From Salvelinus alpinus (Eukaryota > Chordata > Actinopteri > Salmoniformes > Salmonidae), in the NCBI RefSeq assembly GCF_045679555.1, contig NC_092091.1:68227241-68291240 (forward strand): 64,000 bases of DNA, in the 5' to 3' direction. The notes below the pieces were generated by a model. That model was not told the origin of the DNA and did not search any database. It saw only the letters and a list, made by a program, of their open reading frames with translations. Below, piece after piece: positions 909 through 63,875 of this stretch (position 1 is its first letter; the number at the start of each line of letters is the position of its first letter). Made by a program: the position numbers and the translations under genes.

Positions 909-914
909 TAATAA

Positions 915-1407
915 CCTCATCTGCAAGCCGAGAAACTGGGATGGACAGTAACCAAAGAACTGAGAGTGATAACGACAGAGGGGGGACTGAAAATCCCCGA
1001 CCTACTATTCGTGAAAGGTAGACTGGGTGTCGTTGCGGACGTAACAGTGAGATACGAGAGGAACGGGGACACCCTCGAGAAGGGCAGAGCAGAAAAGGTG
1101 GAAAAATACCTCCCCATCGCCCCGATCATTGCGAAACAGTTCAGCCTCAGCAGGGTGCTGGTCTACGGCTTCCCGATGGGAGGCCGCGGGAAGTGGCCCA
1201 CCTCTTAACTTTGAACTGCTGAGAACACTGGGCCTATCAAAGCCGCGAAGTGCGAGGTTCGCGACTCTGATCAGTAGACGAACCCTGCTGTACTCACTGG
1301 ACATCCTAAAGGCCTTTGGCCTAGAATGCAAGGTCGGGCGTCCGGCCGGGACCGGAAGAGAGGACGAGGAAGACGAAATGGAAACGACAGGGCAGGGCCA
1401 ACAGTAG
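915..1407 (+). pseudogene. R2-like retrotransposon protein, C-terminal fragment (restriction-like endonuclease)
   Basis: A 5'-truncated fragment, open from the retroelement border. It reads through a PDLL...VADVTV segment, which fits the PD...D core of the restriction-like endonuclease of R2-clade elements, then an EKVEKY segment. Near 1190-1205 the frame shifts, and the product continues with an ELLRTLGL...LDILKAFG segment that fits the R2 C-terminal tail (an RG-W, then a GL motif). In R2 this enzyme nicks the 28S gene to start target-primed reverse transcription. Reverse transcriptase and DNA-binding domains are missing, so the fragment is dead. Placement with R2, rather than a related NeSL or Hero clade, is strengthened by the 28S sequence that follows at 2251. 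Confidence 0.75.
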
Positions 1408-2249
1408 AATGGTGACTATAGCGGGCAGGAAATATACAAACAAATGGGCCGGGGAACAGGACCCCAATACCTAATAACGGTGACGAGTCCATATAAGTTT
1501 AAGGCCCAAGCAATGGGGCCGTGCCAGCAATAGAACAACGATTATAGCGGGCAAGAAATAATATAAACACTATGGGCGACCTCGAGCGGAAACGAGAGGG
1601 AAACAGGTCGCAACGTGAGCCAAGTGACACAGGATGCACTTCCTGAACGCCGAAAAAAGGTGCCGCCGGTGGGTTGGGTACCACCGGTGAAATCTTCTTA
1701 TCTTGACCCAGTACAGCCTCAGAGGAATGGCAACTCCAAGGAGACTGGTCCTCCCAGGGTTTCTCCATTGGGCCCGACTAATAGGGAGTTTTTATTCCTG
1801 GCCGCCGTACACCGTCTCAAACGCGGTTAGCTCCAAGGAGTACAGGCTGGGTCAGGGGATCCATCGAAGTACAATTTTACCCCGCCTTCCATCACTGACT
1901 TGTAGTGTTCCGAAGGGCCCGTTAGTAGGGAAGTCTGCTGATTATGCCGAATATCATCCCGTTCAACTAAGGCTGGGTTAAAGCTAGATATGTGAGGAGT
2001 GGAAAGGGAATTTTAACCCCACGAGTGTGTTGCATCGTGGAGAGTAAGTAAGGCCTCCGGTCGGTAGGAGGCGGCTGATGCGCAGCCTATAAAACGTAGA
2101 AATGTCAATCTCGCCGGGTTTGGAGCAAGCGGGTGTCAAAGTGAAGATATCCGACCGGCGGAACTCCTGTAGTTGCCCGTGCTCCTCACACTCAGTGTGT
2201 AAATATCGAGGTCGCGCAGGTTACGGCGAGAGCAACTATGACTCTCTTC

Positions 2250-2250
<1 letters not shown>
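1408..2250 (+). other. Probable R2-like 3' untranslated region
   Basis: Non-coding stretch between the R2-like C-terminus and the 28S segment. It holds an imperfect repeat (TATAGCGGGCAGGAAATA near 1417 and TATAGCGGGCAAGAAATA near 1543). Its last 29 bases (2222-2250) resemble the 28S sequence just upstream of the R2 target site, with several mismatches. The short frames here are not credible genes. Confidence 0.55.
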
Positions 2251-2297
<47 letters not shown>

Positions 2298-2321
2298 GAA
2301 CGAGATTCCCACTGTCCCTAC

Positions 2322-2361
<40 letters not shown>

Positions 2362-2371
2362 CAGAATCAGT

Positions 2372-2406
<35 letters not shown>

Positions 2407-2432
2407 TGGCACTGTGAAGAGACATGAGAGGT
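2251..2432 (+). rRNA. 28S rRNA fragment, downstream side of the R2 target site
   Basis: The segment begins GGTAGCCAAATGCCTCGTCA and continues as highly conserved eukaryotic 28S rRNA to GACATGAGAGGT. By eye against the remembered vertebrate sequence I see one difference (near 2371, T for C). Its first base is exactly the first base downstream of the canonical R2 cleavage site. It is only about 180 nt and lies inside a retroelement, so it is a retrotransposed fragment and not a functional rRNA gene. Confidence 0.9.
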
Positions 2433-2454
2433 ACAGGGAAGAGACTCAGGGGTT

Positions 2455-3289
2455 ATGCTAATTTGGTATAGAGCAGACCTAACTCACTCCATTAAATTAA
2501 TCAAAACAGGAACATTTTACATTTGGCTAGAAATTCAAAAGGAAATTATCTTAACAGAGAAAAATGTCCTCCTGTGTGCTACCTATATCCCCCCACTAGA
2601 ATCCCCATACTTTAATGAAGACAGCTTCTCCATCCTGGAGGGGGAAATCAATCATTTCCAGGCCCAGGGACATGTATTAGTCTGTGGCGACCTAAATGCC
2701 AGAACCGGACAAGAACCTGACACCCTCAGCACACAGGGGGACAAACACCTGCCTGCAGGTGACAGCATTCCCTCCCACATATGCCCCCCTAGGCACAACT
2801 ATGACAACATAACCAACAAAAACGGGTCACAACTCCTGCAGCTCTGTCGCACGCTGGGTATGTACATAGTCAATGGTAGGCTTCGAGGGGACTCTTATGG
2901 TAGGTACACCTATAGCTCATCTCTTGGCAGTAGCACTGTAGACTACTTTATCACTGACCTCAACCCAGAGTCTCTCAGAGCGTTCAGTCAGCCCACTGAC
3001 ACCCCTATCAGACCACAGCAAAATGACAGTCTACTTGAACAGAGCAATACTCAATCATGAGGCATCAAAGCCAAAGGAACTGAGTAACATTAAGAAATGC
3101 TATAGATGGAAGGAATGCAGTTTGGAAACCTACCAAAAAACAATTAGGCAACAACAAATTCAATCCCTTTTAGACAATTTCCTGGGTAAAACGTTCCACT
3201 GCAATAGTGAAGGTGTAAACTTGGCAGTAGAAAATCTTAACAGTATATTTGACCTCAGCTTCCCTATCAAATCTAAAAATCTCAAATAG
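2455..3289 (+). pseudogene. LINE ORF2 remnant: APE-type endonuclease part
   Basis: The frame from 2455 carries hallmarks of the apurinic-endonuclease-like domain of non-LTR retrotransposons: VLVCGDLNARTG (the GDxN motif) and STVDYFI. The terminal SDH motif is in another frame near 3009, just before MTVYLNR, so there is a frameshift around 2985-3010. A second shift occurs near 3250-3289. The N-terminal part of the domain is missing, so the 5' junction with the 28S segment is near 2433-2455. The element is inactive. Family placement, Jockey/I-group of the Nimb type, is a guess from general sequence character. Confidence 0.8.
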
Positions 3290-5678
3290 AAAACTGAAGA
3301 AAATGAACAACAATGACAAATGGTTTGATGAAGAATGCAAAAATCTAAGAAAGAAATTGAGAGACCTGTCCAACCAAAAACATAGAGATCCGGAAAACCT
3401 GAGTCTACGCCTTCACTATGGTGAATCACTAAAACAATACAGAAATACACTACGGAAAAAGAAGGAACAGCACGTCAGAAATCAGCTCAATGTAATTGAA
3501 GAATCCATAGACTCTAACCACTTCTGGGGAAATTGGAAAACACTAAACAAACAACAACACGAAGAATTATCTATCCAAAATGGAGATGTATGGGTAAACC
3601 ACTTCTCCAATCTTTTTGGCTCTATAACAAAGAATAAAGAGCAAAAACATATACATGATCAAATACAAATCTTAGAATCAACTATTAAAGACTACCAGAA
3701 CCCACTGGATTCTCCAATTACCTTGAATGAGTCACAGGACAAAATAAAAACCCTCCAACCCAAAAAGGCCTGTGGTGTTGATGGTATCCTTAATGAAATT
3801 ATCAAATATACAGACAACAAATTCCAATTGGCTATACTAAAACTCTTTAACATCGTCCTTAGCTCTGGCATCTTCCCCAATATTTGGAACCAAGGCTGGT
3901 CACCCCAATCCACAAAAGTGGAGACAAATTTGACCCCAATAACTACCGTGGAATATGCGTCAACAGTAACCTTGGGAAAATCCTCTGCATTATCATTAAC
4001 AGCAGACTCGTACATTTCCTCAATGAAAACAATGTACTGAGCAAATGTCAAATTGGCTTTTTCCCAAAATACCGTACAACAGACCATGTATTCATCCTAC
4101 ACACCCTAATTGACAACCAAACAAACCAAAACAAAGGCAAAGTCTTCTCATGCTTTGTTGATTTCAAAAAAGCCTTCGACTCAATTTGGCATGAGGGTCT
4201 GCTATACAAATTGATGGAAAGTGGTGTTGGGGGTAAAACATACGACATTATAAAATCCATGTACACAAACAACAAGTGTGCGATTAAAATTGGCAAAAAA
4301 CACACAAATTTCTTCACACAGGGTCGTGGGGTGAGACAGGGATGCAGCTTAAGCCCCACCCTCTTCAACATATATATCAACGAATTGGCGCGAGCACTAG
4401 AAAAGTCTGCAGCACCCGGCCTCACCCTACTAGAATCCGAAGTTAAATGTCTACTGTTTGCTGATGATCTGGTGCTTCTGTCACCAAACAAGGAGGGCCT
4501 ACAGCAGCACCTAGATCTTCTGCACAGATTCTGTCAGACCTGGGCCCTAACAGTAAATCTCAGTAAGCCCAAAATAATGGTGTTCCAAAGAAGGTCCAGT
4601 CGCCAGGACCACAAATACAAATTCCATCTAGACACTGTTGCCCTAGAGCACACAAAAAACTATACATACCTTGGCCTAAACATCAGCGCCACAGGTAACT
4701 TCCACAAAGCTGTGAATGATCTGAGAGACAAGGCAAGGGTATTCTATGCCATCAAAAGGAACATAAATTTCAACATAGCAATTAGGATCTGGCTAAAAAT
4801 ACTTGAATCAGTCATAGAGCCCATTGCCCTTTATGGTTGTGAGGTCTGGGGTCCGCTCACCAACCAAGACTTCACAAAATGGGACAAACACCAAATTGAG
4901 ACTCTGCATGCAGAATTCTGCAAAAATATCCTCCGTGTACAACGTAGAACACCAAATAATGCATGCAGAGCAGAATTAGGCCGATACCCACTAATTATCA
5001 AAATCCAGAAAAGAGCCATTAAATTCTACAACCACCTAAAAGGAAGCGATTCCCAAATCTTCCATAACAAAGCCATCACCTACAGAGAGATGAACCTGGA
5101 GAAGAGCCCCCTAAGCAAGCTGGTCCTGGGGCTCTGTTCACAAACACACCCCACAGAGCCCCAGGACAACAGCACAATTAGACCCAACCAAATCATGAGA
5201 AAACAAAAAGATAATTACTTGACACATTGGACAGAATTAACAAAAAAACAGAGCAAACTAGAATGCTATTTGGCCCTAAACAGAGAGTACACAGTGGCAG
5301 AATACCTGACCACTGTGACTGACCCAAACTTAAGGAAAGCTTTGACTATGTACAGACTCAGTGAGCATAGCCTTGCTATTGAGAAAGGCCGCCGTAGGCA
5401 GACATGGCTCTCAAGAGAAGACAGGCTGTGCCCACTGCCCACAAAATTAGGTGGAAACTGAGCTGCACTTCCTAACCTCCTGCCCAATGTATGACCATAT
5501 TAGAGAGACATATTTCCCTCAGATTACATAGATCCACAAAGAATTCGAAAACAAATCCAATTTTGATAAACTCCCATATCTACTGGGTGAAATTCCACAG
5601 TGTGCAATCACAGCAGCAAGATTTGTGACCTGTTGCCACAAGAAAAGGGCAACCAGTGAAGAACAAACACCATTGTAA
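3249..5678 (+). pseudogene. LINE ORF2 remnant: reverse transcriptase and C-terminal zinc-knuckle region
   Basis: The frame from 3249 ends in a KACGVDGILNEIIK segment, the entry to the RT domain. After a shift near 3890 the frame to 5461 contains HKSGDKFDPNNYRGI, the VDFKKAFDSIWH palm motif with its catalytic aspartate, GVRQGCSLSPTLFN, and FADDLVLLS, the catalytic Asp pair. Another shift near 5440 lets the C-terminus continue with ELHFLTSCPMYD, part of a Cys/His cluster, to a stop at about 5676. Catalytic motifs are intact but at least four frameshifts across the ORF make it non-functional. It would have copied the element RNA at the target site. Confidence 0.88.
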
Positions 5679-5760
5679 ATACAACCCATATTTATGCTAA
5701 TTTATTTTCCCTTGTGTACTTTAACCATTTGTACAACACTGTGTATATATATATATATAC

Positions 5761-5794
<34 letters not shown>

Positions 5795-5868
5795 CTACCT
5801 CACTTGCTTTGGCAATGTTAACACATGTTTCCCATGCCAATAAAGCCCCTTGAATTGAATTGAATTGA
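5679..5868 (+). other. LINE 3' UTR with TTGAA-repeat tail
   Basis: Non-coding 3' end with a (TA)n stretch at about 5743-5791, an AATAAA-like signal (CCAATAAAGCCCC), and a terminal TTGAATTGAATTGAATTGA. Short 3' microsatellite tails of this kind mark the reverse-transcription start of several non-LTR clades. The minisatellite resumes directly after it, which fixes the 3' border. Confidence 0.8.
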
Positions 5869-5943
5869 GAGAGACTGGTGAGGAACAGAGAGAGAGAGAG
5901 AGACTGGTGAGGAACAGAGAGAGAGAGAGAGAGACTGGTGAGG

Positions 5944-5980
<37 letters not shown>

Positions 5981-6046
5981 GTGAGGAACAGAGAGAGAGA
6001 GAGAGAGACTGGTGAGGAACAGAGAGAGAGAGAGCGACTGGTGAGG

Positions 6047-6093
<47 letters not shown>

Positions 6094-6358
6094 GTGAGGA
6101 ACAGAGAGAGAGAGAGAGACTGGTGAGGAACAGAGAGAGAGAGAGAGAGAGACTGGTGAGGAACAGAGAGAGAGAGAGAGAGAGACTGGTGAGGAACAGA
6201 GAGAGAGAGAGAGAGACTGGTGAGGAACAGAGAGAGAGAGAGAGAGACTGGTGAGGAACAGAGAGAGAGAGAGAGAGAGGTGAGGAACAGAGAGAGAGAG
6301 AGAGACTGGTGAGGAACAGAGAGAGAGAGAGAGACTGGTGAGGAACAGAGAGAGAGAG
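5869..6358. repeat. GA-rich minisatellite, right part
   Basis: Continuation of the array at 1-908 with the same CTGGTGAGGAACAGAGAG core and GA runs, here on average longer. It fades out into GGCTTGCGTTAGGAG at about 6358. Confidence 0.95.
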
Positions 6359-12407: not shown

Positions 12408-13147
12408 CTCTATAGAAACAGGACATGTTTGTCCTCTACAAATAGAAGACAAATTGTGCAAGATACTTTTATGTCCGTTATAGATTATGGGGATATTATC
12501 TACATGCATGCTACGGCATCAACACTTAAATCGCTGGATGCTACTTATCATTGCACACTTAGGTTTATTGCAGGTGCTAGCTACAGAACTCACCACTGTG
12601 TTTTATATCAAAATGTGGGTTGGACTTCGCTGTCCATGAGACGAGAACAACATGCTCTCGTGTTTGTCTATAAGCACTTCTGAATAAACTACCTTATTTA
12701 TCATCACTCATCAATATTAGAGTTATAATTCCTAAAACCAGGTCTCAACATGGATTACACTTGAGGCCCCTGCGATCTCCACAGAGTTGGGTATGGCTGC
12801 CTTTTCCTGTTACGCTCCTTGCCTATGGAATAGCCGGCAGACTAAACTTAAACTTGAGACTCTTGTCTCCCTTGCCCATTTGAAATATATATTGGAGGAT
12901 TTTTATTTTTGTATTGCTTGTAACTGTTTCGGGTAATGCAAGTTCTTGTGCTGTTAGGGGAATAACCTGTGTAAATGTAATAATCTGCTGCTGTATTTTT
13001 TTGTGTTATCTGTGATCGTTTTGTTTGTCTTGTGTAGTTTCTTAATCATTGTACCTAAACTGTATGTGTAACATGTATACGCAGGGCCCAGCTGTAAAAG
13101 AGACCTTGCTCTCAGTCTGTGTTCCTTGTTGAAATAAAGGTATAATA
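12408..13147 (+). pseudogene. LINE (L2-like) C-terminal fragment and 3' end, right of hAT insertion
   Basis: Continues the LINE after the hAT element: a frame to 12683 carries NRRQIVQDTFMSVIDYGDII and VGWTSLSMRREQHALVF, the post-RT C-terminal region of L2-like elements. The rest is 3' sequence ending in GAAATAAAGGTATAATAATG. Sequence from 12423 onward recurs at 55871. Confidence 0.82.
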
Positions 13148-13169
13148 ATGTGTGTGTGTGTGTGTGTGC
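13148..13169. repeat. (TG)n microsatellite, short allele
   Basis: About ten TG repeats just downstream of the LINE 3' end. The second copy at 56597-56620 is 4 bp longer. Confidence 0.9.
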
Positions 13170-13197
13170 AGGTGCACAGGTGTGTGTCTATACTCAC

Positions 13198-13423
13198 TGC
13201 TGGCGATGTGTCGGCTGTCCCCGGCCTGTGGTAGTGTCTCGTGGGCGTCGTGGTAGACCTGAGGCAGCCCTATCGTCCTGTTCATGTCCATTGTGTCCAG
13301 CACCACCGAGCTCTCCTCCCCGTTCACCGTGATGTCACGGACCCCTGTGATGGGGTTGGTGGGCGGGCCTCCCACTGACATCTCATAGTCTGGCGGAATG
13401 TCATCCCCACAGTCAAAGTTGGG
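13198..13423 (-). CDS. rnf150: rnf150 exon 6
   Basis: Acceptor TTTCAG|CCCAAC; encodes [20 protein letters not shown] then [19 protein letters not shown] and further variable tail to DSRHIAS. Donor AGCA|GTGAGT, phase 1. 226 nt. The cytosolic tail is less conserved than the RING. The next exon should carry the acidic C-terminus and stop, but it is not visible between here and position 1. Confidence 0.88.
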
Positions 13424-16400
13424 CTGAAATCAATCAATCAAATATAAACAACAACAACAAAAAACTTTCCAAAAATAAAATCTCTTCAGGATCAGGGTTG
13501 GGAATGAAAGAGAGATGGATAGATTTTGAAAGACAGAAACTCCTTACTGGTATTCCCAGCGCTTTGAGGATGTTCATTTTACACATGGGACAGGTCCGGT
13601 GGTCCAGAAGCCAGGGGTCCACACAGCTTTTATGGAAGATGTGCCTGAGGACAGAGTCACACACACGAACACGCATAGCATTGATGATGTCATCCATAGT
13701 AACAGTCTCCTTGGTAACATAGCATCACTCACCATGCTCTACATATGCTCGCAGGTACAGAACAGAATATTATTGTAGCATATTAATGACTACCAATCAT
13801 TAGCAATAGACCTACTGCAACACATGATCTATCGGAGACAATGATAGTAATGGGTGTCAATGTGTCTGCTCTCTCTAGTTACACTGAAAAATGGGAGAGG
13901 CTGTCGTACCTGCACGGCAATATCCTAACAACATCATTCGCTTTATAGACCTCGATGCACACAGCACAGTTGTCAAAGTCAGACTCCGTTTCCTAGAACA
14001 CCAAACACACAGGAGACATTTGGTTGGTTGTCTAGTCTCGTTTTAATTTCCTGGAAGGTGAATAAAGCGGAGCGGATCAAAAGCCATGCAGCGTGTATAA
14101 TTAATTAAAATTATAACACACACACACACACACAGAAAATAAAAATGAGTCAGTCATTATCATTGGGCTGATGGAAGTTCATTATCAAATGCTGCGCTTA
14201 GCAGGAGCGTGGGGAAACGGTTCGCTTCGGTTTAAAACCCTACAATCAAGGTCATATCCCTGCTACTTAAATAGGTGGTTTTGGAAACACTTTACTTGAA
14301 GAGGGTCTATACATAAGGCATTCATAACACCTTCATGAAACCAGTCATGAAACCTTTACGAGTGTGGCAGTATCATTCATAACAACCTTCGTAACACATT
14401 TATCCAACATCATAGAAGAGGTTAGTAAAGCATGCAGCCAGGTCTACCTTGTCTCCTTTCCTGATGGTTCGTACTTGGAGCTTACTGATGGCCTTCTTGG
14501 CTGCGTCTCCGAGACGTCTCTGCTCATAGAAGATCAAAGAACAACAAAGAAGGTGGGGGAAAGATAAGCAACCCAACCTGGCAACCCAAAAGAGAGAAAA
14601 GAATGTCTGGAATTTCCTATATATCCAATAACCACTGACAAGACAAGGAATGGACACGTTTCAAGGTTAGAGAAAGGGCGTGAGATCCACTGTCCCCATC
14701 TGAACCAAGGTGGACCATATTACTGGTTAATAGATCTGAAGGAGCCGTTCTGAGAGGCTGTGTAATGTTTTAACACGGCAGGATGAACAGTCGCTTAGTG
14801 ATGTTGACATAGCAGCGTCTCTGAGCTGACAGTTAACCACTTGTTGCAGACCAGAGGAGAAAACACAGGCCGAGTCAGGTCATTGAGTTGTGCAAGGTAT
14901 AAAAAAGGGAAAGAGAGAGAAAAAGAGAGGGAGGGAGAGATAGAGAGCTAAATGCATGAGGGAGGGAGGGAGAGATTGAGTGGATAATAGATAAATACTA
15001 AGAGACATTGAGAGAAAGGTAGGCTGCTAACCCTCGCTATCTAGGTCTAGTCTCACTGTGGAAAAGAACTGCATCAGACCAGGCCACTGCCCACAGCTGC
15101 TCTCAATCAATCATCAAGGAAAGTCATTGTGACATCAACAGAGAACAGATTTGTGGTTTCAGGCCTGGCAAGTTCTTGTCACCATGGTGCCCATTCCCCT
15201 TGACAACCCATGTGGTTGTCTGTAACATTTGTGTCAACATTGGACAATCTTAGAAAAAAGATTTCCAAAAAGTTTATTCAGCTGTCCCCATAGGAAAACC
15301 CTTTGAAGAACCCTTTTTGGTTCTATGTAGAACCCTCTGTAGAAAGGGTTCCACATGCAACCCAAAAGGATTTTACCTGGAACCAAAATAATTCTCCCTG
15401 CAACCAAAAAGGGTTCTTCAAAGGGTTCTCATATGGGGACAGCCGAAGAACCCTTTAAGGTTCTAGATAGCACCTTTTTTTCTAAGAGTGTGGGCCACGG
15501 TGTGTGCATTGACTACACGGTCCAACAGGACTACACGGTTGACGGTCCAACAGGTTTCCGCTAGCAAACCCAGCTGTCGCGCAATTTTTAATTTTGGCCT
15601 TCATTTCTGGAAGGAAAAGGCAGGGAAATGTTTGGAGAAGACGAATCACCTCAGAGAAAAGCAACTGCTCTACATATAGATATAGAAAAAGTATGTTCAT
15701 ACTGTGGTAAAACTGCTAGTTTCCGCTGTCATTACGGTCATACCGTACCTGGTTGCGGTCACGAGCGTTGGCATATCTGAACCGCTGTATATAGTAGAAG
15801 ACAACCTGTGTGTGATCAGAGACAACACACTGAAATACAGTAGGATGACTTTACCAACCATGTCTTTGGTTGTCTTACCAACCATGTCTTATAATCCCTT
15901 CAGATGGTTAGTTAAAACGCTACACTCACTACGTGCCTCACATTGATCCGGTACCCGCTGTATATAGCCTCGTTATTGTTATTTGGGGTGTTATTTGGGG
16001 GGGGAGTACTGTGTCTGTACAGTGAACCGTACCTGATTGCGGTCGCGAGCGTTGGCGTATCTGAACCGCTGTATGTAGTAGAAGATGAGCCATGCCAGGG
16101 AGATGATCATCAGGACGATGAAGGAGATGGAGACGAACACCACCGACGTTCTGCTCACATACTTCTGAAGGTTCCTCGTTCCTATGGTGATGTGCACGGT
16201 CACCGTGACGTTGCGTTCTAGTAGAGCGGCGATCTCCCGACCCTTGGGTTCCGGAATCATGATCGCCACGATATCCCCCGTACCTGTTGGAAGAGGAATT
16301 TCCAGGTGAACAAAAAGAAGAGCAGTCGTTGGTAAAGTCAATCAAATATCGATTCGGTTTATTAAAAGTTGCAAAAGGGAGACATTTCTAGAACAGAGCA

Positions 16401-19400
16401 GAGAAAATGTCTAAACGGGCCTCTTGGAGACGGGCACTGTATATTCTAAATCACACAGCACCAGGCTGGTAGGAAGTCAAGACAAACAGGCTGGGACTTT
16501 GTCAGCTGCTACAAAATATATCCAACCAACTATTGTAAATATGTTGTAGTTCATTGGAAATAAACTTAATAAAGGATCTGTTGAGACAACCTAAACATCC
16601 ATATGGGACAATATATTATTTTTGTATGGGACAGAGATCTGCAACATCTGGCTCTGGGACTGCATGTGGCTCTTTGATTGCTCCTTTGTGGCTTCATTTG
16701 ATCCCATTCATTTGTATGGGATTTGAAACCTCTCTGTGGAGGTATCAGACCCCTATTGTGTATCAGGGTTGAGCTAAACTATAAATAACCTGTACTCACA
16801 GAACACTGTCTGTAGAACACAGTGAGTAATTAGCATTAGGCTAGCCTACTGGGAGTTCATTCAGGCAGAGACAGGACGCAGAGCCAACAAAACAAACCCC
16901 TGACTCTCCATGTCTGGGTCAGAGCCCTGTGGTCCTGTTAAGAAGGGAGAAAACGTTACAGATTTAGAACAAATCTGTCGAACAGAAATGATTTGTCAGT
17001 CACAGAGTAAGGAATCATATTAGCTCTATTCATTAGCTGACATTTCTATCAGCAACGTTTTGAACATTTCATGTCACTGGTGTCACAATACCAGACCGCT
17101 TTGATAACACAGTCCAATTGACAATTAGGTCAGGCCCAGCTGCCACTAAAAAGGTTGGATCGGTAACTCATTTAGGGGTCAAACAAAGTACCACACCCCC
17201 CCCAGACACTCTACAAGGGAACATAATTTCATAGCAAAGCCATTAGTTCACACCACCAGATAGTCAACAGAGTGGAAAATTGTAACCACCAAGGATATTT
17301 TAACACTTTCACAACTGAGTCGAAGGTTGTTGAGTTGGATGTTATCAAGGTCATGGACAACAGAAGTGCCACTTTAACACGTTGTGTTTTAACACTTCAG
17401 TTAACTCCTTTCAGAGTTGAAACCAGCAAGTTCTGACAGGGCCTCCCACCAGACATTATTCTCATCCTCACCTCTCATCTAGCCCCTCTCCCTATGGCCT
17501 GTGACCTGACACTTCACACAATCCTCAACCGTCACACCAAAAGATACTATAGCTTCGATATCCCCTTTCTTCACACAGAAAATTATAATTACAGTGATAA
17601 AATATCCTTCAAGTAGGCTAAGTCCTAAGCTAACCCACTAAATAACACAATCGATTCCCCTCAAGATTTCAAAATGGCCACCATTCACGTTCATAAGAAG
17701 CAGGCCAAAAAGCTTCAGCGAGGCAAGACTCCGAGTGCCTTAACTTGCAGCTACAGTATGTACTGCCTACCTGTCTATCGGACATGGACACACTTTAACC
17801 ACTGACTGAAGCATTGGGAGGTGAGGTGAGAGTGATAGATAGGAAGTATAGCCTATCAGAGGTGTCTGAGTGGTTTAAAATCCCAGACAAGAGATTACAT
17901 TCCATGGACACTCCATCTGCAGCCACACATTGAGGTGGGATGATGTCTGTGTCGTCAAGGGCCTAAGTGACTCATTAGCCTTTGGAACTCGGTGACATCA
18001 TTTCCTCTAGGACTCTGCGGCCTTGTTACCGTGGCGTCTGTGCGGAGCCACAGGAACACAGAAGCCCCAGGGTGCTTCACTCCATCTATCAGTAATTTCT
18101 AAAGGAGAGGCTCGTTCACTCTGCCACCACCGCCGCCCGGGCAGCCCGCCAGCCACAGGGCATTGTGGGATACCCTCGGCACCCGGCGGAGGTCTGAGAG
18201 TGGCCAAGGCCATTATATCACCATACCCTGGGGATGGATAGAGAGAAAGAAAAAAAGAGAGAGGAAAGTTGGCACCTAGCAACACCATATTATCACTGCA
18301 GAAGAGACAAAAACAGGTTGGAAAAAGCTGTGACTGAAGAAATAAAAGTAGCTGAAAAACTTTTTGCCCAAGACAGACACAAAGCAAGCAGCAAGGCATT
18401 CAAAAATGGATGACTCAGTCAACCCACTCACTAATGAATTCCGGATTAGAAAAGGAACATTGGACTTTACTCCAGAGACTGAAATATATTCACTAACAAA
18501 TGCAGATTTAAAACCGCCAAAAGATTAGCATACGACACAGTGGGCGCGTCCATAAGGCTAGGAGCTAAGCTTCCCCTAAAGTAAATTGGCAAAATTATAT
18601 AGCCTAATTATCTTACTCCTGTCGATACAGAAATTCATAAAATAATTCAAAATAAGCTACTACACCAGAAAGCATGATTTGGCCACAGAGGATCATTAGC
18701 TTCTTTAAAAACATATAAGCTGTGGATCCTCGTAAAACTGACTATCCTACCGATCCTTGACTTCGGCGATGTAATTTACAAAATAGACTCCAACACTCTA
18801 CTCAGCAAATTGTATGCAGTCTATCACAGTGCCATCCGTTTTGCCACCAAAGCCCCATATACTACCCACCACTGCGACTTGTATGCTCTCGTTGGCTGGC
18901 CCTCGCTTCATATTCGTCGCCAGACCCACTGGCTCCAGGTCATCTATAAGTCTTTGCTAGGTAAAGCTCCGCCTTATCTCAGCTCACTGGTCACCATAGC
19001 AGCAGCAACCCAAAGCACGCACTCCTTATCTCAGCTCACTGGTCACCATAGCAGCACCAACCCATAGCACGCGCTCCAGCTGGTATATTTCACCCCCAAA
19101 GCCAATTCCTCCTTTGGCCACCTTTCCTTCCAGTTCTCTGCTGCCAATGACTGGAATGAATTTCAAAAATCACTGAAGCTGGAGACTCATATCTCCCTCT
19201 CTAACTTTAGGCACCAGCTGTCAGAGCAGCTCACCGATCACTGCACCTGAACATAGCCCATCTGTAAATAGCCCATCCAACTACCCCATCCTCAAACTGT
19301 TATTCTTTTTATTTTAATTGCTCCTTTGCACCCCAGTATCTCTACTTGCACATTCATCTTCTGCACATCTATCACTCCAGTGTTTAATTGCTAAATTGTA

Positions 19401-20387
19401 ATTATTGCGCCACTATGGCCTATTTATTGCCTTACCTCACCTCATTTGCACACACTGTATATAGACTTTTCTATTGTGTTATTGACTGTAATGTTTGTTT
19501 ATTCCATGTGTAACTCTGTGTTGTTGTTTGTGTCGCACTGCTTTGCTTTATCTTGGCCAGGTCGCAGTTGCAAATGAGAACTTGTTCTCAACTGGCCTAC
19601 CTGGTTAAATAAAGGTGAAATAAATAAAAAAAATGTCATTGCCTACAGTCAGAAGGCACCACAATTTAGGCAGCGCGCCTGGCAAATAGCCACATAGATG
19701 ATTGTTGAGTTGCGAATGTCAGTGAAAAGTAGAAGCCCAGCCAGGTATATCGCAATATTTCAAAATACAATTGAAGGAAAACATCATTTGGAAAGCAAAT
19801 GTCTATTGCTGTAAAGAAAAGACAATGAAAATAATAATCTGTCTTTTGGTTATCAAAATTCTCAATTAATTGAGTGAACAGTAAAGCCTATCTTATTAGC
19901 ACCAGCTAATATATGCGCACTCACATTCCTGGTGAGTGCGCATATTCACTCTTTCATGGTTGGATTAGTGCTACTTGAAAGTCAGTTTTTGGACAATAAT
20001 TTCCTCCTCCAGGTTAGATGAACGTCATAATTGTGTGTGTCTACCCTTCTCATAGGACGATTAGATGGATCAGACAACATGGTTTTAATTGATCTGTTTG
20101 TCAGTGTCAGCAGAGTAGGCTACTCTGTAATTTTTGACGTATTAAAAAAAGATTCTGCTAATGTCTCCAGTCATATAAAGTGTAGTAGAATTGCATGAAA
20201 TGTGTTCATATAAGGCCATCTGTCTCAGCCTCCAGTAGCTTGTGTCGGGGGGCTAGGGCCAGTCTGTTATCTGTGTTGTGTTATATATATATATATATAT
20301 CTCTCTCTGCATTTTTCTGGTGAAAATCACGTCAGGTGAACAGGTCAGGGTTCCATAGCTGCAGGCAGAACAGTTGAAACTGGAGTA

Positions 20388-20423
<36 letters not shown>

Positions 20424-23400
20424 TTTCCTCCAATGTGGAGGAGGAAACCCCGTGCACCTGGCTCCCTTGGTTAGCGCGCACTGCGCCCGGCCCGCCACAG
20501 GAGTCGCTGGTGCGCGATGAGACAAGGATATCCCTACCGGCCAAACCGGTAGCCCGGACTACGCTAGGCCAATTGTGCGTCCTCCCGGTCGACCTCCCGG
20601 TCGCGAACCCAGAGTCTCTGGTGGCGCAGCTAGCGCTGCGATGCAGTGCCCTAGACCACTGCGCCACCCGGGAGGCCCCAGGTTCTGGCCTTTCTAGGGA
20701 GTTTTTCCTAGCCACCGTGCTTCTACACCTGCATTGCTTGCTGTTTGGGGTTTTAGGCTGAGTTTCTGTACAGCACTTTGAGATATCAGCTGATGTAAGA
20801 AGGGCTTTACAAATAAATTTGATTTGATATAGCCTACAGCCATGCATTCAATGATTATGTTATATTATTAGCCTAAATTAAGACTATCCAATCTACTCAT
20901 CACATTAGGAATAGTAGGCTATTTTACATAAGTCTGCAAATATGATGATGCATGGAATGCTTTATTATAAAGGTGCATTTTTCTGGTGAAAATTTGCTTC
21001 CCCAAACTTGAATCTCACACGCCTATGGGATACGGCATGCACGGTATGCTAATTTCCCTTGGCAGAGTTGCATGACTCACATCTGTACAGGTCTAGCTAA
21101 CAGTGAGAATAGGTAAAAATACAGTGGGTGAAAGAGGGTGGTCAAAGAACAGAGGGAAGAGATGGAGGAGACAGAATACAACTCTTGTTTCTCTGTTCTC
21201 TCGGTCGGTCGCCATGGCGCCCAGTTTCATGACGTGGTCCTGGAAATAAACCTCAAGGTGTGTGTGTGTGACGCAGGGACTGATCCCCCATGGATCCCCC
21301 AAAGGCGCAATGCATTATTATGCTCATAAATCTCCATATGTAACTAGTTCGTCGTAAGAGACATACAGCCACAGGTTTATGGAGAGAAAGGAGAGCAGAT
21401 CAATAGATCTACATAATAATAATCTTTACTAGCCCAACTCTTCGTATGGGTCCAAAAGCTGCACTCTTGAAGCTTTTTCTCATAGGCGTATTGTCTTGAA
21501 ACGGAAGTTAAAGGGCTACTGGCAAAGTGTGCTTTTTTTCGGCTTCAGATTGCCTAATTGTTTCCAAAAAACTAAAACGACTAGACTAAATCTAATAATA
21601 CACAGCATTCTAATGAAATAAGAGCATCAGGAATGAAGAGCTCTGGAGCCAATGTCCTGGCATAGACGGGGCCTAAATCACATTGTGATGCAACAGTGCA
21701 CAATGGATAGTAGGCCGGAGGCTACTGTGTTATCCTGCATATAGGGTTTACACACAGCAAAGCACAATGCATTAGGTCCAAGGACGCCACATATAGGCCT
21801 ATATGCAAACAAGCGCACACACACACACACACAGTTGGCTGAATTAGCAACGAGTGTTGCAGCAGCACCATGGTTTGTTCATACATAACTGTTAAGGGTA
21901 GCCACTCCTAATGCAATCAGCGGCACAATCACCGGCAGAAAAACAAGGCTGTGTGTGCACGGTAAACAGATCTCACGGCTGCTAATACTATTACGTTAAC
22001 ACTGAGCCCTACACCCTGACAAACGCTACACAGCTTAAAAAAAAACATCATAGGCTTGCTAACCTAACCAGATACCCCTCAACCGATGTGCATAAATAAA
22101 CTGCCTGGACATGAGGGCACAATCCAACATGGATGCCAAAAGTTTAGTAGCAACACATGGCCTCAAGGAGTGGATTAACTTCTTCACCTCTATGAGCCTT
22201 GATAACAATATGACCATGGTAAAGGAACACACTGACAAAGTTGTACGGTCTGCAGAGCTGCTTTTGCACACTGGCCATGCTTCAGCTGTTAAGTATGAGA
22301 TCTTAAGTAGGTAGTGCAGAGTAGACTCAAGGTTTTAGCCATCTTTACCATCTGGGTGGGATTTTGGATTACATAGACTGGTCCCTGATCTGTTTGTGCT
22401 GTCTTGCCAACTCCTATGGTCATAGTCACGTCAATAACCATAGGAGTTGGCAAGACACTACAAACAGATCTGGGACCAGGCTAGAAATTACAACCCAGAT
22501 GAAGGAGACAAGAATACTGACACAAAGATATTCCACAAAGGGGCAACACATTTTATCACCACTGTCTGCAAGTAGTTGGCGAATCCATTTCATTTAGAGA
22601 GAGAGAAAGAACAAGAAAAACAAAATAGCTGCTTCTAAAAATCAAAGCAGTGTGTAATATCAACCGATGGCCCGACAGAGGCTGAACTGGACCAAAATCT
22701 CTCCTCTTTGAGGACACCCATTAGCAAGAATGGTGCATAATAAGCCAAGATGGTGCATAATAAGCCACAATGGTGCATAATAAGGAAAGCCAGGTGGAAT
22801 AGAGAGCGAGTGAGCAGTTGATTTTTAGAGGAAGGGCGCTAACCTGTTTAGTGCTGCTGAGGATTAGCTTTTGCTAGCAGCCTTGAGGGCAGCATAACCT
22901 GCTGTGTAGTGGATAATAGTATTTGGTTAGCTGTAATTAAACAGCACAAATCCTTATTCAATATCAACAGTGTTAGTCTGTCCAGCGAAAATGTGCATAA
23001 AAATATAAAATAATTAATACATGTAGCCACCGAAATTTGCATAGCCAAGATGGCCGACAAAACAACTGCCTAAAAAACCATGGTCAGGAAAGAAAAACTG
23101 AAAGGATCTGGCAGAGGGAGGGAGCCACGTCATACAGTAATCTAGTGATTAATTCCAGCTCTCAGAAAATGTCCTCCACATGCTCATTGCTTTCCCTCCA
23201 TATAAAAGCCAGACTGCAAATGGCAAGTCTTTCATAAAGATCAGCCCTGATAGGATTCATACGTGTCCTGTCCACACAGAGGTCTGAGTGTTCTCATACA
23301 AAAAGGCCTTGTATGCATTCTTTGTCACAGGTGGGGCCAACCTAATTAAGATGAGAGAGAGAGGGAGAGAGAATGAGATTCTTGGCTCTCGGTTACCCTG

Positions 23401-50760: not shown

Positions 50761-51370
50761 GTGAGGTTTGATGGAGGGGGTTCTGGGGAGGTTCTGGGAA
50801 GGTTTGGTGAGGCTGGATGTTGTAGTTGAGAGATTTTTGTTGATCTCCCCTCAATAGGTTCGGTTGATAGTTGAGGAGGATTGGTTTCTGGGGAGATGCA
50901 GTAAGTTTAGTCATGATGTAGTCATTTATAATGCTGCACAACATTCTTTGCTGCGGGTGACCTATAACCATTCACAACCATTCCATGTGGTTGCATGGCG
51001 TTGTAAGTTTTACACAGTTTAATAAACAATATACCAAGACTTAACTCAATGACTACATAAGACCACCAACAAACAACTAAAATGACTTCAGAGGAAAGAA
51101 ATGTATAGTCTTGTTCCAACATGCCTGAAGGAAAAGCAGCTGAGGAGGTGTTAGTAGTATATTAAAACGGGCTTCCTTTCTAGTAGTTTGGCTCACAGCC
51201 ACTTTTGCATTCTTTAAATCTACAGCACGACTTTGTCATAATCCTTTTAGGTACAGCTCAACTTTTACTGGCGCTATTAACTTTGAACACCCAAGCTTGC
51301 GTCATTGGCCCAAGACTTTCAAATGTATTACCCTCAAGACAGATTCCAACTTTCTAACCACTACCCATAC
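50761..51370 (+). other. Start of tbc1d9 intron 6
   Basis: Begins with the donor GTGAGG after exon 6. No coding region seen. The stretch leads into the 35-bp minisatellite. Confidence 0.7.
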
Positions 51371-54300
51371 TGTTGCCCCATCTAGATGTCTATTGTAGTA
51401 GTAACTGTTGCCCCATCTAGATGTCTATTGTAGTAGTAACTGTTGCCCCATCTAGATGTCTATTGTAGTAGTAACCGTTGCCCCATCTAGATGTCTATTG
51501 TAGTAGTAACCGTTGCCCCATCTAGATGTCTATTGTAGTAGTAACCGTTGCCCCATCTAGATGTCTATTGTAGTAGTAACTGTTGCCCCATCTAGATGTC
51601 TATTGTAGTAGTAACTGTTGCCCCATCTAGATGTCTATTGTAGTAGTAACTGTTGCCCCATCTAGATGTCTATTGTAGTAGTAACTGTTGCCCCATCTAG
51701 ATGTCTATTGTAGTAGCAGCTGTTGCCCCATCTAGATGTCTATTGTAGTAGTAACTGTTGCCCCATCTAGATGTCTATTGTAGTAGCAACTGTTGCCCCA
51801 TCTAGATGTCTATTGTAGTAGTAACTGTTGCCCCATCTAGATGTCTATTGTAGTAGTAACTGTTGCCCTATATAGATGTCTATTGTAGTAGTAACTGTTG
51901 CCCTATATAGATGTCTATTGTAGTAGCAGCTGTTGCCCCATCTAGATGTCTATTGTAGTAGTAACTGTTGCCCCATCTAGATGTCTATTGTAGTAGTAAC
52001 TGTTGCCCCATCTAGATGTCTATTGTAGTAGTAACTGTTGCCCCGTCTAGATGTCTATTGTAGTAGTAACTGTTGCCCCATCTAGATGTCTATTGTAGTA
52101 GTAACTGTTGCCCCATCTAGATGTCTATTGTAGTAGCAGCTGTTGCCCTATATAGATGTCTATTGTAGTAGTAACTGTTGCCCTATATAGATGTCTATTG
52201 TAGTAGTAACTGTTGCCCTATATAGATGTCTATTGTAGTAGCAGCTGTTGCCCTATATAGATGTCTATTGTAGTAGCAGCTGTTGCCCTATATAGATGTC
52301 TATTGTAGTAGTAACTGTTGCCCTATATAGATGTCTATTGTAGTAGTAACTGTTGCCCTATATAGATGTCTATTGTAGTAGCAACTGTTGCCCTATATAG
52401 ATGTCTATTGTAGTAGTAACTGTTGCCCTATATAGATGTCTATTGTAGTAGTAACTGTTGCCCTATATAGATGTCTATTGTAGTAGTAACTGTTGCCCCA
52501 TCTAGATGTCTATTGTAGTAGCAACTGTTGCCCCATCTAGATGTCTATTCTAGTAGCAACTGTTGCCCCATCTAGATGTATATTGTAGTAGTAACTGTTG
52601 CCCCATCTAGATGTCTATTGTAGTAGTAACTGTTGCCCCAGCTAGATGTCTATTGTAGTAGTAACTGTTGCCCCATCTAGATGTCTATTGTAGTAGTAAC
52701 TGTTGCCCCATCTAGATGTCTATTGTAGTAGTAACTGTTGCCCCATCTAGATGTCTATTGTAGTAGTAACTGTTGCCCCATCTAGATGTCTATTGTAGTA
52801 GTAACTGTTGCCCCATCTAGATGTATATTGTAGTAGTAACTGTTGCCCTATATAGATGTCTATTGTAGTAGCAGCTGTTGCCCCATCTAGATGTCTATTG
52901 TAGTAGTAACTGTTGCCCCATCTAGATGTCTATTGTAGTAGCAACTGTTGCCCCATCTAGATGTCTATTGTAGTAGTAACTGTTGCCCCATCTAGATGTC
53001 TATTGTAGTAGTAACTGTTGCCCCATCTAGATGTCTATTATAGTAGTAACTGTTGCCCCATCTAGATGTCTATTGTAGTAGTAACTGTTGCCCCATCTAG
53101 ATGTCTATTGTAGTAGTAACTGTTGCCCCATCTAGATGTCTATTCTAGTAGTAACTGTTGCCCTATATAGATGTCTATTGTAGTAGTAACTGTTGCCCTA
53201 TATAGATGTCTATTGTAGTAGTAACTGTTGCCCCATCTAGATGTCTATTGTAGTAGGAACTGTTGCCCCATCTAGATGTCTATTGTAGTAGGAACTGTTG
53301 CCCCAGCTAGATGTCTATTGTAGTAGTAACTGTTGCCCCAGCTAGATGTCTATTGTAGTAGTAACTGTTGCCCCAGCTAGATGTCTATTGTAGTAGTAAC
53401 TGTTGCCCCGTCTAGATGTCTATTGTAGTAGTAACTGTTGCCCCGTCTAGATGTCTATTGTAGTAGTAACTGTTGCCCCGTCTAGATGTCTATTGTAGTA
53501 GTAACTGTTGCCCCATCTAGATGTCTATTGTAGTAGTAACTGTTGCCCCATCTAGATGTCTATTGTAGTAGTAACTGTTGCCCCATCTAGATGTATATTG
53601 TAGTAGTAACTGTTGCCCCATCTAGATGTATATTGTAGTAGTAACTGTTGCCCCATCTAGATGTCTATTGTAGTAGTAACTGTTGCCCCAGCTAGATGTC
53701 TATTGTAGTAGTAACTGTTGCCCCGTCTAGATGTCTATTGTAGTAGTAACTGTTGCCCCGTCTAGATGTCTATTGTAGTAGCAGCTGTTGCCCCGTCTAG
53801 ATGTCTATTGTAGTAGTAACTGTTGCCCCGTCTAGATGTCTATTGTAGTAGTAACTGTTGCCCCATCTAGATGTATATTGTAGTAGTAACTGTTGCCCCA
53901 TCTAGATGTCTATTGTAGTAGTAACTGTTGACCCATCTAGATGTCTATTGTAGTAGTAACTGTTGCCCCATCTAGATGTCTATTGTAGTAGTAACTGTTG
54001 CCCCATCTAGATGTCTATTGTAGTAGTAACTGTTGCCCCATCTAGATGTCTATTGTAGTAGTAACTGTTGCCCCGTCTAGATGTCTATTGTAGTAGTAAC
54101 TGTTGCCCCATCTAGATGTCTATTGTAGTAGTAACTGTTGCCCCATCTAGATGTCTATTGATAGTAGTAACTGTTGCCCTCATCATAGATGTCATATTGT
54201 AGTAGTAACTGTTGCCCCATCTAGATGTCTATTGTAGTAGTAACTGTTGCCCCATCTAGATGTCTATTGTAGTAGTAACTGTTGCCCCATCTAGATGTCT

Positions 54301-55770
54301 ATTGTAGTAGTAACTGTTGCCCCATCTAGATGTCTATTGTAGTAGTAACTGTTGCCCCGTCTAGATGTCTATTGTAGTAGGAACTGTTGCCCCATCTAGA
54401 TGTCTATTATAGTAGTAACTGTTGCCCTATATAGATGTATATTGTAGTAGTAACTGTTGCCCCATCTAGATGTCTATTGTAGTAGTAACTGTTGCCCCAT
54501 CTAGATGTCTATTGTAGTAGTAACTGTTGCCCCGTCTAGATGTCTATTGTAGTAGTGAACTGTTGACCCCATCTAGATGTCTATTGTAGTAGGAACTGTT
54601 GCCCCATCTAGATGTCTATTGTAGTAGTAACTGTTGCCCCATCTAGATGTCTATTGTAGTAGTAACTGTTGCCCCATCTAGATGTCTATTGTAGTAGTAA
54701 CTGTTGCCCCATCTAGATGTCTATTGTAGTAGTAACTGTTGCCCCATCTAGATGTCTATTGTAGTAGTAACTGTTGCCCCATCTAGATGTCTATTGTAGT
54801 AGTAACTGTTGCCCCATCTAGATGTCTATTGTAGTAGCAACTGTTGCCCCATCTAGATGTCTATTGTAGTAGTAACTGTTGCCCCATCTAGATGTCTATT
54901 GTAGTAGTAACTGTTGCCCCATCAGATGTCTATTTAGTAGACTGTTGCCCCATCAGATGTCTATTGTAGTAGTAACTGTTGCCCCATCTAGATGTCTATT
55001 GTAGTAGTAACTGTTGCCCCATCCAGATGTCTATTGTAGTAGCAACTGTTGCCCCATCTAGATGTCTATTGTAGTAGTAACTGTTGCCCCATCTAGATGT
55101 CTATTGTAGTAGTAACTGTTGCCCCATCTAGATGTCTATTGGTAGTAGGCTAGACTGTTGACCCCATCTAGATGTCTATTGTAGTAGTAACTGTTGCCCT
55201 ATATAGATGTCTATTGTAGTAGTAACTGTTGCCCCATCTAGATGTCTATTGTAGTAGTAACTGTTGCCCCATCTAGATGTCTATTGTAGTAGTAACTGTT
55301 GCCCCATCTAGATGTCTATTGTAGTAGTAACTGTTGCCCCATCTAGATGTCTATTGTAGTAGTAACTGTTGCCCCATCTAGATGTCATATTGTAGTAGTA
55401 ACTGTTGCCCCATCTAGATGTCTATTGTAGTAGTAACTGTTGACCCATCTAGATGTCTATTGTAGTAGTAACTGTTGCCCCATCTAGATGTCTATTGTAG
55501 TAGTAACTGTTGCCCCATCTAGATGTCTATTGTAGTAGTAACTGTTGCCCCATCTAGATGTCTATTGTAGTAGTAACTGTTGCCCCATCTAGATGTCTAT
55601 TGTAGTAGTAACTGTTGCCCCATCTAGATGTCTATTGTAGTAGTAACTGTTGCCCCATCCAGATGTCTATTGTAGTAGTAACTGTTGCCCCATCTAGATG
55701 TCTATTGTAGTAGTAACTGTTGCCCCATCCAGATGTCTATTGTAGTAGTAACTGTTGCCCCATCTAGATG
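51371..55770. repeat. 35-bp minisatellite, about 125 copies, ending at the gap
   Basis: Unit TGTTGCCCCATCTAGATGTC followed by TATTGTAGTAGTAAC, period exactly 35 over most of the array. Recurrent variants are CCCTATATAG, CCCCGTCTAG, CCCCAGCTAG and a GTAGCAGC/GTAGCAAC end. Variants occur in blocks, e.g. TATATAG mainly at 51866-51910 and 52146-52480, and CCCCAGCTAG then CCCCGTCTAG at 53300-53510. From about 54160 short indels disturb the period. The true length is unknown because the array runs into N. Confidence 0.97.
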
Positions 55771-55870
55771 NNNNNNNNNNNNNNNNNNNNNNNNNNNNNN
55801 NNNNNNNNNNNNNNNNNNNNNNNNNNNNNNNNNNNNNNNNNNNNNNNNNNNNNNNNNNNNNNNNNNNNNN
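55771..55870. other. Assembly gap, 100 N
   Basis: Exactly 100 N, the usual placeholder for a gap of unknown size. The minisatellite ends in it on the left; on the right begins a copy of 12423 onward. Confidence 0.99.
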
Positions 55871-56595
55871 ACATGTTTGTCCTCTACAAATAGAAGACAA
55901 ATTGTGCAAGATACTTTTATGTCCGTTATAGATTATGGGGATATTATCTACATGCATGCTACGGCATCAACACTTAAATCGCTGGATGCTACTTATCATT
56001 GCACACTTAGGTTTATTGCAGGTGCTAGCTACAGAACTCACCACTGTGTTTTATATCAAAATGTGGGTTGGACTTCGCTGTCCATGAGACGAGAACAACA
56101 TGCTCTCGTGTTTGTCTATAAGCACTTCTGAATAAACTACCTTATTTATCATCACTCATCAATATTAGAGTTATAATTCCTAAAACCAGGTCTCAACATG
56201 GATTACACTTGAGGCCCCTGCGATCTCCACAGAGTTGGGTATGGCTGCCTTTTCCTGTTACGCTCCTTGCCTATGGAATAGCCGGCAGACTAAACTTAAA
56301 CTTGAGACTCTTGTCTCCCTTGCCCATTTGAAATATATATTGGAGGATTTTTATTTTTGTATTGCTTGTAACTGTTTCGGGTAATGCAAGTTCTTGTGCT
56401 GTTAGGGGAATAACCTGTGTAAATGTAATAATCTGCTGCTGTATTTTTTTGTGTTATCTGTGATCGTTTTGTTTGTCTTGTGTAGTTTCTTAATCATTGT
56501 ACCTAAACTGTATGTGTAACATGTATACGCAGGGCCCAGCTGTAAAAGAGACCTTGCTCTCAGTCTGTGTTCCTTGTTGAAATAAAGGTATAATA
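55871..56595 (+). pseudogene. LINE (L2-like) C-terminal fragment, second copy
   Basis: Same sequence as 12423-13147: NRRQIVQDTFMSVIDYGDII to KHF and then the 3' end. It starts abruptly at the gap, 15 bases inside the point where the hAT element ends in the first copy. Confidence 0.85.
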
Positions 56596-56649
56596 ATGTG
56601 TGTGTGTGTGTGTGTGTGTGCAGGTGCACAGGTGTGTGTCTATACTCAC

Positions 56650-56875
56650 TGCTGGCGATGTGTCGGCTGTCCCCGGCCTGTGGTAGTGTCTCGTGGGCGT
56701 CGTGGTAGACCTGAGGCAGCCCTATCGTCCTGTTCATGTCCATTGTGTCCAGCACCACCGAGCTCTCCTCCCCGTTCACCGTGATGTCACGGACCCCTGT
56801 GATGGGGTTGGTGGGCGGGCCTCCCACTGACATCTCATAGTCTGGCGGAATGTCATCCCCACAGTCAAAGTTGGG
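56650..56875 (-). CDS. rnf150: rnf150 exon 6, second copy
   Basis: Same exon as 13198-13423, with intact TTTCAG acceptor and GTGAGT donor. It follows a TG repeat 4 bp longer than in the first copy. Confidence 0.88.
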
Positions 56876-56999
56876 CTGAAATCAATCAATCAAATATAAA
56901 CAACAACAACAAAAAACTTTCCAAAAATAAAATCTCTTCAGGATCAGGGTTGGGAATGAAAGAGAGATGGATAGATTTTGAAAGACAGAAACTCCTTAC

Positions 57000-57096
57000 T
57001 GGTATTCCCAGCGCTTTGAGGATGTTCATTTTACACATGGGACAGGTCCGGTGGTCCAGAAGCCAGGGGTCCACACAGCTTTTATGGAAGATGTGC
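57000..57096 (-). CDS. rnf150: rnf150 exon 5, second copy
   Basis: Same as 13548-13644: [20 protein letters not shown] and on to GIP, splice sites intact. Confidence 0.93.
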
Positions 57097-57361
57097 CTGA
57101 GGACAGAGTCACACACACGAACACGCATAGCATTGATGATGTCATCCATAGTAACAGTCTCCTTGGTAACATAGCATCACTCACCATGCTCTACATATGC
57201 TCGCAGGTACAGAACAGAATATTATTGTAGCATATTAATGACTACCAATCATTAGCAATAGACCTACTGCAACACATGATCTATCGGAGACAATGATAGT
57301 AATGGGTGTCAATGTGTCTGCTCTCTCTAGTTACACTGAAAAATGGGAGAGGCTGTCGTAC

Positions 57362-57444
57362 CTGCACGGCAATATCCTAACAACATCATTCGCTTTATAG
57401 ACCTCGATGCACACAGCACAGTTGTCAAAGTCAGACTCCGTTTC
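57362..57444 (-). CDS. rnf150: rnf150 exon 4, second copy
   Basis: Same as 13910-13992, carrying the CAVC ligands of the RING-H2; splice sites intact. Confidence 0.92.

Positions 57445-63841: not shown

Positions 63842-63875
<34 letters not shown>

Follow-up and report, generated by a model that had tools for sequence, protein, structure and literature searches.

An R2–28S rRNA segment joined to the 5' end of a GA-repeat-targeting LINE within a minisatellite of Salvelinus alpinus

The stretch of Salvelinus alpinus DNA analyzed here (contig NC_092091.1, positions 68,227,241 to 68,291,240; 64,000 nucleotides (nt), called the window below) contains a block, 909-5867, in which the 3' end of an R2 retrotransposon, a piece of 28S ribosomal RNA (rRNA) and a 5'-truncated long interspersed nuclear element (LINE) of the apurinic/apyrimidinic endonuclease (APE) type follow one another within a minisatellite. 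The block is best explained, with a probability of about 0.8, as one insertion that was driven by the LINE and drew on donor RNA, a figure that includes a route in which two RNAs were ligated beforehand. A LINE seems to have copied RNA that came from a different, site-specific LINE and was still joined to rRNA. Coordinates are window positions unless a chromosome is given, all features are on the + strand, and loci numbered with an L were found elsewhere in the 2.37-Gb genome.

Composition of the block

The R2 stretch (909-2252) comes from the 3' end of a 5'-truncated R2 retrotransposon and comprises about 165 codons and the 3' untranslated region (UTR). The C-terminal fragment of the open reading frame (ORF) occupies 909-1407 and contains one frameshift. 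Frame 915-1208 matched R2 proteins in the PDB (9nl2, E = 4.7e-16; 9nl3, 6.9e-14; 9dou, 8.5e-14), and frame 1051-1407, past the frameshift, contained the remaining R2 C-terminus with a weaker match (E = 0.0043). Besides this R2-type C-terminal protein, membership in R2 is indicated by a 3' end at the canonical 28S site, with 28S beginning as TAGCC at 2253. The end of the ORF and the 3' UTR (1408-2252) were common to the sister copies L043 and L044, BLAST homology to which starts near 925, and the ORF fragment was found at eight places in the genome, the window copy included (8 of 8 scored). A 45-nt direct repeat (1390-1434 and 1516-1560, 78%, spacing 126) lies across the start of the 3' UTR; in L045 and L046 a repeat of about 126 nt in the R2 3' UTR was expanded to several tandem copies, while the window has two.

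The next 180 nt (2253-2432) are 28S rRNA and correspond to positions +1 to +180, counted downstream from the R2 site. They lie inside a match to Rfam RF02543 (220 bits), and their first bases, TAGCC, are those just past the R2 cleavage site. Three of four fish 28S primer sites given in PMC5035012 were exact in the block and the fourth was cut after its first three bases. There were ten differences from the Rfam consensus and 3 in 180 from the consensus of 16 loci of the same genome, these three including two CpG transitions and one change common to six other loci. Comparison of 909-2450 with R2 and 28S, which the initial annotation had proposed, thus matched R2 proteins and placed 28S in 2253-2432.

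The last part of the R2 3' UTR, 2214-2252, aligned to the Rfam consensus as a 28S-like tail of the type described in PMC5035012. Against the 40 consensus positions directly upstream of the R2 site it showed five mismatches and one gap, and fainter 28S similarity extended further upstream. As in fish R2 with a 28S-derived 3' UTR, the tail was less 28S-like than the downstream 28S. There were 6 differences in 40 positions upstream of the R2 site (versus Rfam) and 3 in 180 downstream when the local consensus was used (p = 0.0014), and 14 in 55 versus 0 in 66 when the comparison was made with L061, a plain 28S fragment of the same genome (p = 5.8e-6). The step was not significant when both sides were compared with the pan-eukaryote Rfam consensus (6/40 versus 10/180, p = 0.084). 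The block's tail was also present in L043, L044 and L023, and because just 3 nt (L043) or 6 nt (L023) of 28S come after it there, the tail belongs to R2. Rfam gave no match to large-subunit (LSU) rRNA in 905-2250, nor in 2125-2252 as a separate query, so the tail is recognized as 28S only together with the 28S that follows it. The block appears to contain an ordinary R2 3' end with true 28S behind it and not an R2 at a shifted site, and the 28S-like tail plays no part in the argument for a single event. Such tails are described for seven fish R2 families (R2Gs, R2Pt, R2Bs-A, R2Bs-B, R2Sb, R2Kp and R2Op; Kojima 2016, PMC5035012), in which, as in the block, the 3' UTR is 28S-like but less so than the true downstream 28S. 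The block copy differs from the families of that account in being a 5'-truncated fragment outside ribosomal DNA (rDNA), the tails being compared by description. Its 5' boundary, which in an R2 of this type would be shifted 110-130 nt upstream in 28S, belongs to the missing part, and no copy in rDNA was found.

The LINE (2433-5867) is 5'-truncated, with a decayed ORF (frames 2428-3060, 3231-4040 and 3863-5461) and the 3' tail TTGAATTGAATTGA. Frame 3863-5461 matched RVT_1 (E = 9.7e-40), and frame 2428-3060 gave sub-threshold endonuclease matches (2.3e-4, to Exo_endo_phos_2, and 0.0029). The element was classed as an APE LINE on endonuclease plus reverse transcriptase (RT), with the endonuclease match below the curated cut-off. 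A genome search with the 5' part of the LINE (query 2433-2900) returned 2,614 candidates, of which the best 40, the window included, were scored. Base 2433 was carried by the 39 other scored copies, and all 40 cover query positions 1-468 at 99% or more, which is partly an effect of their selection as the best. The 28S part and the LINE part both look young, because the former differs from the local consensus at 3 of 180 positions and the latter shares 99% identity with other copies across 468 nt.

Ten upstream flanks of other LINE copies showed that the LINE runs ...CCAGGTGTGAA|ACAGGGAAGGGACTC across the position of the window junction. The LINE bases upstream of 2433, present in the ten fetched copies, are missing in the window; L054 keeps a few of them before GA. 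Because other copies carry the bases that follow the junction, the LINE of the window starts at 2433 and is joined to 28S without filler, in other words, non-LINE sequence is directly fused to the LINE 5' end at 2432|2433. The initial annotation had placed this junction at 2433-2455, a position now corrected, and the check for microhomology that it had proposed there gave a negative result: the junction is blunt, with no microhomology to the LINE bases preceding it in other copies (...GTGTGAA|ACAGGG). The R2, 28S and LINE parts are all in sense, without filler and without N, and the matches to R2 proteins, RF02543 and RVT_1 confirm the chimera as first observed.

The GA-rich target of the LINE

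The block is flanked on the left (1-908) by a GA-rich minisatellite, the target of the LINE, with a 23-nt unit, GGAACAGAGAGAGAGACTGGTGA, and longer GA variants; the array extends left beyond the window. The right part of the same minisatellite occupies 5867-6358. A 25-mer of the array, AGAGACTGGTGAGGAACAGAGAGAG, occurred 52 times in the genome in a search confined to exact matches, all on C6 at the block locus, 39 to the left of the block and 13 to the right. Because the exact 25-mer is confined to this locus and is found on both sides, the outer flanks are one array, as had been claimed.

Insertion at GA repeats is the usual behavior of this LINE. The 3' ends of 20 of the 39 other scored copies were fetched, and 16 were readable; L073, L082 and L084 contained N, and L086 entered another repeat before the LINE 3' end. 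By eye, the LINE tail TTGAATTGA... enters GA-type repeats in 15 of the 16 and GATA in one. Under a fixed rule, in which at least 14 of the 19 steps in the 20 nt after the tail must be GA or AG, 13 of the 16 flanks passed, compared with 11 of 13,035 background 20-mers from loci L010-L049. By both counts the LINE is specific for GA repeats. At the 5' end, ten regions were seen, of which seven continue as LINE. In the other three the LINE stops, at GA itself in L054 and L056 and about 12 other nt short of GA in L051. Because almost all readable 3' ends and the visible 5' ends elsewhere lie in or near GA, the minisatellite is an ordinary target of its kind for this LINE.

Kibi and Koshi are LINEs specific for microsatellites. 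Togen, at (TG)n in fish, and some HERO families are likewise described as microsatellite-specific in PMC4640811. All of these sit at simple repeats like the LINE of the window, but Togen and HERO have a restriction-like endonuclease, whereas the window LINE has an APE-type endonuclease match and uses GA repeats.

Origin of the block and a second 28S-LINE joint

The proposed event would have begun when the GA-repeat-targeting APE LINE nicked the minisatellite and target-primed reverse transcription started from the 3' end of the LINE RNA. The LINE RNA would have been copied up to 2433, after which the copy may have been extended on a second RNA, a putative read-through transcript of an R2-interrupted 28S gene, with entry 180 nt past the R2 site. 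From there, copying would have continued towards the 5' end of this RNA, across 28S and the R2 3' UTR and into the end of the R2 ORF, as far as 909, where the cDNA would have been linked to the opposite side of the minisatellite. The start of synthesis is fixed because the LINE 3' end sits at GA. The GA flank expected at the 5' end is found at the R2 end of the block, with none between 28S and LINE, so the R2-28S sequence was presumably added to the growing LINE copy or to the LINE RNA. An R2-28S co-transcript would supply 909-2432 as one colinear piece.

The position of the GA flank also bears on whether there were two insertions, first of R2-28S alone into the minisatellite and then of the LINE at its edge, or in the opposite order. 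The sequence ACAGGGAAGAGACT at the junction resembles the minisatellite, and the first 20 nt of the LINE part do so more than most of its 20-mers, only 25 of 3,245 scoring as high. However, other copies of the LINE carry these 20 nt as well, which is the ground for rejecting two insertions. Furthermore, three LINE 5' ends elsewhere lie in or near GA while here no GA is left between 28S and LINE, and the same type of joint recurs at the locus L016 described below. Separate target duplications, which the initial annotation had named as a refutation of its reading, are not seen, there being no copy of the target between the parts. Two separate insertions are therefore very improbable.

The dispersed 28S sequences of the genome were searched with the 180-nt query. 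This gave 42 candidates, of which 40 were scored, including the window. Very common words were skipped, so that intact rDNA arrays may escape this search, and none was seen in it. All 39 other loci were inspected; the flanks covered kilobases in 28 of them and about 60-130 nt in the remaining 11, on the downstream side alone in six cases. The LINE was attached at one of the 39, L016, as determined by BLAST against the LINE; L011 and L041 contained only a 59-nt LINE tail, kilobases from 28S. In L016, 28S runs from +1 to +173 and is followed by the LINE from about 4200, in sense and about 94% identical to that of the window. The 12 nt between the 28S and LINE BLAST ends are read as repeated LINE bases. 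Upstream of the 28S are a 28S-like tail and about 435 nt of repeated R2-like 3' UTR, which also occurs in other R2-like copies, for example at C20:46791695. The two joints have the same LINE family and other breakpoints. By chance, about 0.0005-0.009 of 40 loci would be expected to show head-to-tail adjacency within 10 nt, a rough figure that assumes 2,614-50,000 LINEs; two were observed, the BLAST ends of the second being 12 nt apart. The genome search for further R2-28S-LINE junctions thus found one locus, which is surely a 28S-LINE joint and probably an R2-28S-LINE joint.

None of the 28 loci with long flanks had an R2 ORF of the L043 or window type upstream of 28S, and the two RT matches near them (L018 and L040) were on the downstream side. 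The 3' UTRs of other tail families were only weakly similar to that of the window, with 0-87 of 1,000 shuffles reaching the score in the seven loci tried. Because of the missing upstream ORF and the weak similarity, such families (L016 and L040, for example) are called R2-like only.

These dispersed loci are also an argument for a capture of DNA, in which the LINE cDNA end would have been joined during repair to a broken piece of R2-interrupted rDNA, since 28S pieces behind a 28S-like tail are scattered through the genome (23 of 28 loci, by eye, with near-duplicates counted). Most of them, however, have another tail, and their 28S is 90-97% identical to that of the window (99% in L025, several lower), while the window 28S is near the consensus (3/180). 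In addition, both known joints are in sense and at the LINE 5' end, in two cases only. Capture of DNA is accordingly considered improbable.

A further possibility is that unplaced rDNA or R2 sequence was misjoined to the LINE in the assembly. The setting is prone to misjoining, as no intact rDNA array was seen in a search that skips common words and the LINE is very numerous. Nevertheless, the exact array 25-mer is present on both sides of the block and nowhere else, the internal break that would have pointed to an artefact is absent (the block has no N, the sole N run of the window being 55771-55870), and L016 provides a second joint. An artefact is therefore very unlikely.

Within the single insertion, the R2-28S RNA could first have been ligated end to end with the LINE RNA, giving a fusion RNA that LINE retrotransposition of the ordinary kind then reverse-transcribed. 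The blunt junction without microhomology agrees with this, and PMC13174262 proposes ligation as one of two routes to sense 28S/LINE-1 chimeras. It requires, however, a LINE RNA already 5'-truncated at the junction, and the 12 nt of repeated LINE sequence at the LINE start in L016 are more like polymerase slippage. Ligation is thus a possible but rather unlikely variant. The donor was presumably RNA, added by a template jump rather than by prior ligation of two RNAs, although the two routes cannot be told apart from the block itself. The mechanism given in the initial annotation, RT priming on the LINE RNA followed by a jump, is therefore supported with qualifications: a single LINE-driven insertion is favored, while the jump is not separable from ligation or from capture of an rDNA fragment.

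Several observations weigh against the single LINE-driven insertion or weaken its support. Neither microhomology nor untemplated bases, the marks of a template jump, are present at the junction. The last 28 nt before 909 are the same as the first 28 nt from 5867, which fits a target duplication, yet this is expected in a tandem repeat, and a duplication here is indistinguishable from the periodicity of the array. The right flank of the window LINE scores 10 of 19 by the GA rule, being a GA-rich minisatellite unit rather than uninterrupted GA. L050 and the window differ at three of the first 60 bases of the LINE. No other R2 copy of the block's family followed by 180 nt of 28S was found among the 40 of 72 candidates scored in one search or the 8 of 8 places scored with the ORF fragment. 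Finally, L016 has no target duplication, and its right flank is only loosely GA-like.

The two joints, taken as independent events with different tails and breakpoints, raise the tentative suggestion that the APE LINE repeatedly captures R2-type/28S read-through RNA. If so, the LINE enzyme would meet rRNA read-through often enough to export R2 to GA repeats. How often such events occur could be measured directly in a genome-wide survey of the 5' junctions of this LINE, which is abundant and includes near-identical copies.

Related chimeras and other loci

Chimeras of RNAs with LINEs, and even of 28S with LINEs, are a known class. In humans, 18 28S/LINE-1 chimeras are reported (83% sense, median 269 nt; PMC13174262), and for those in sense the explanation given there is template switch or RNA ligation. 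Like the block, these chimeras have a piece of 28S attached to the 5' end of a LINE, in most cases in the sense orientation, but they consist of 28S alone and L1, whereas the block has an R2-28S read-through, a GA-repeat-targeting LINE and 1,524 nt of added sequence. U6/LINE-1 and other small-RNA/LINE-1 chimeras, for which template switch or ligation at the LINE 5' end is also proposed in PMC13174262, differ from the block in their short partner RNAs and in the use of L1. No R2-28S-LINE chimera was found among open-licence PMC papers. Within that literature, the R2 read-through partner, the GA-targeting LINE as the engine, the host and the probable recurrence in one genome are new, extending RNA/LINE chimeras to another LINE type and host.

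The block would keep the trace of an rDNA-resident R2 copy and of its read-through transcript, though no rDNA array was seen, and suggests a route for rDNA-bound R2 sequence to leave rDNA. The initial annotation had stressed that rDNA-specific R2 sequence was placed outside rDNA. R2 does lie in a minisatellite here, but the block is not unique in this, as R2 was also found outside 28S at L043, L044 and L023. L043 (C23:50646600-50654600) has long remains of an ORF in several frames, in which cysteine-histidine fingers, RT and the C-terminal region were recognized by eye; its 3' end is AAGGTAG, with unrelated sequence after it. This locus is either an off-target R2 insertion or a moved copy.

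The dispersed 28S loci look like an R2-like/rDNA family. As noted, a diverged 28S-like tail and not plain 28S precedes the R2 site in most of those with long flanks. L013 and L042 continue to the 28S 3' end. L025 (C14:9198612-9198767) is a lone 156-nt 28S fragment, 99% identical to the window 28S and followed by TTAAAAAATATATA, which looks like a young retro-inserted 28S fragment. In L040 (C17:14375281-14375455), 28S breaks at about +182 beside a repeat for which there are 5,319 candidate copies. This may be another fusion, but it was not counted as a third chimera because the break may simply be the end of the repeat itself: 28S ends at query position 57, and the 39 other scored places of the repeat begin at query positions 54-79. 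An apparent cluster of 28S breakpoints at +171 to +182 (L025, L016, the window and L040) was dropped, as breakpoints scatter by eye from about +53 to +206.

In collections of other sequences, relatives of the block were not found among viral contigs. One contig of a bacterial metagenome-assembled genome, in a collection of genome contigs, contained about 100-120 nt of similar LINE, which is read as fish contamination. In a plasmid collection, 19 haloarchaeal records matched about 99 nt around the 28S part and are probably LSU genes.

Elsewhere in the window, a repeat of about 8.1 kb at 99.8% occupies 12423-20548 and 55871-64000. The second copy comes directly after the N run at 55771-55870, which in turn follows a 35-nt satellite array (51369-55770). 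The repeat may reflect a scaffold join that left a false duplication, or else a duplication of very recent date.

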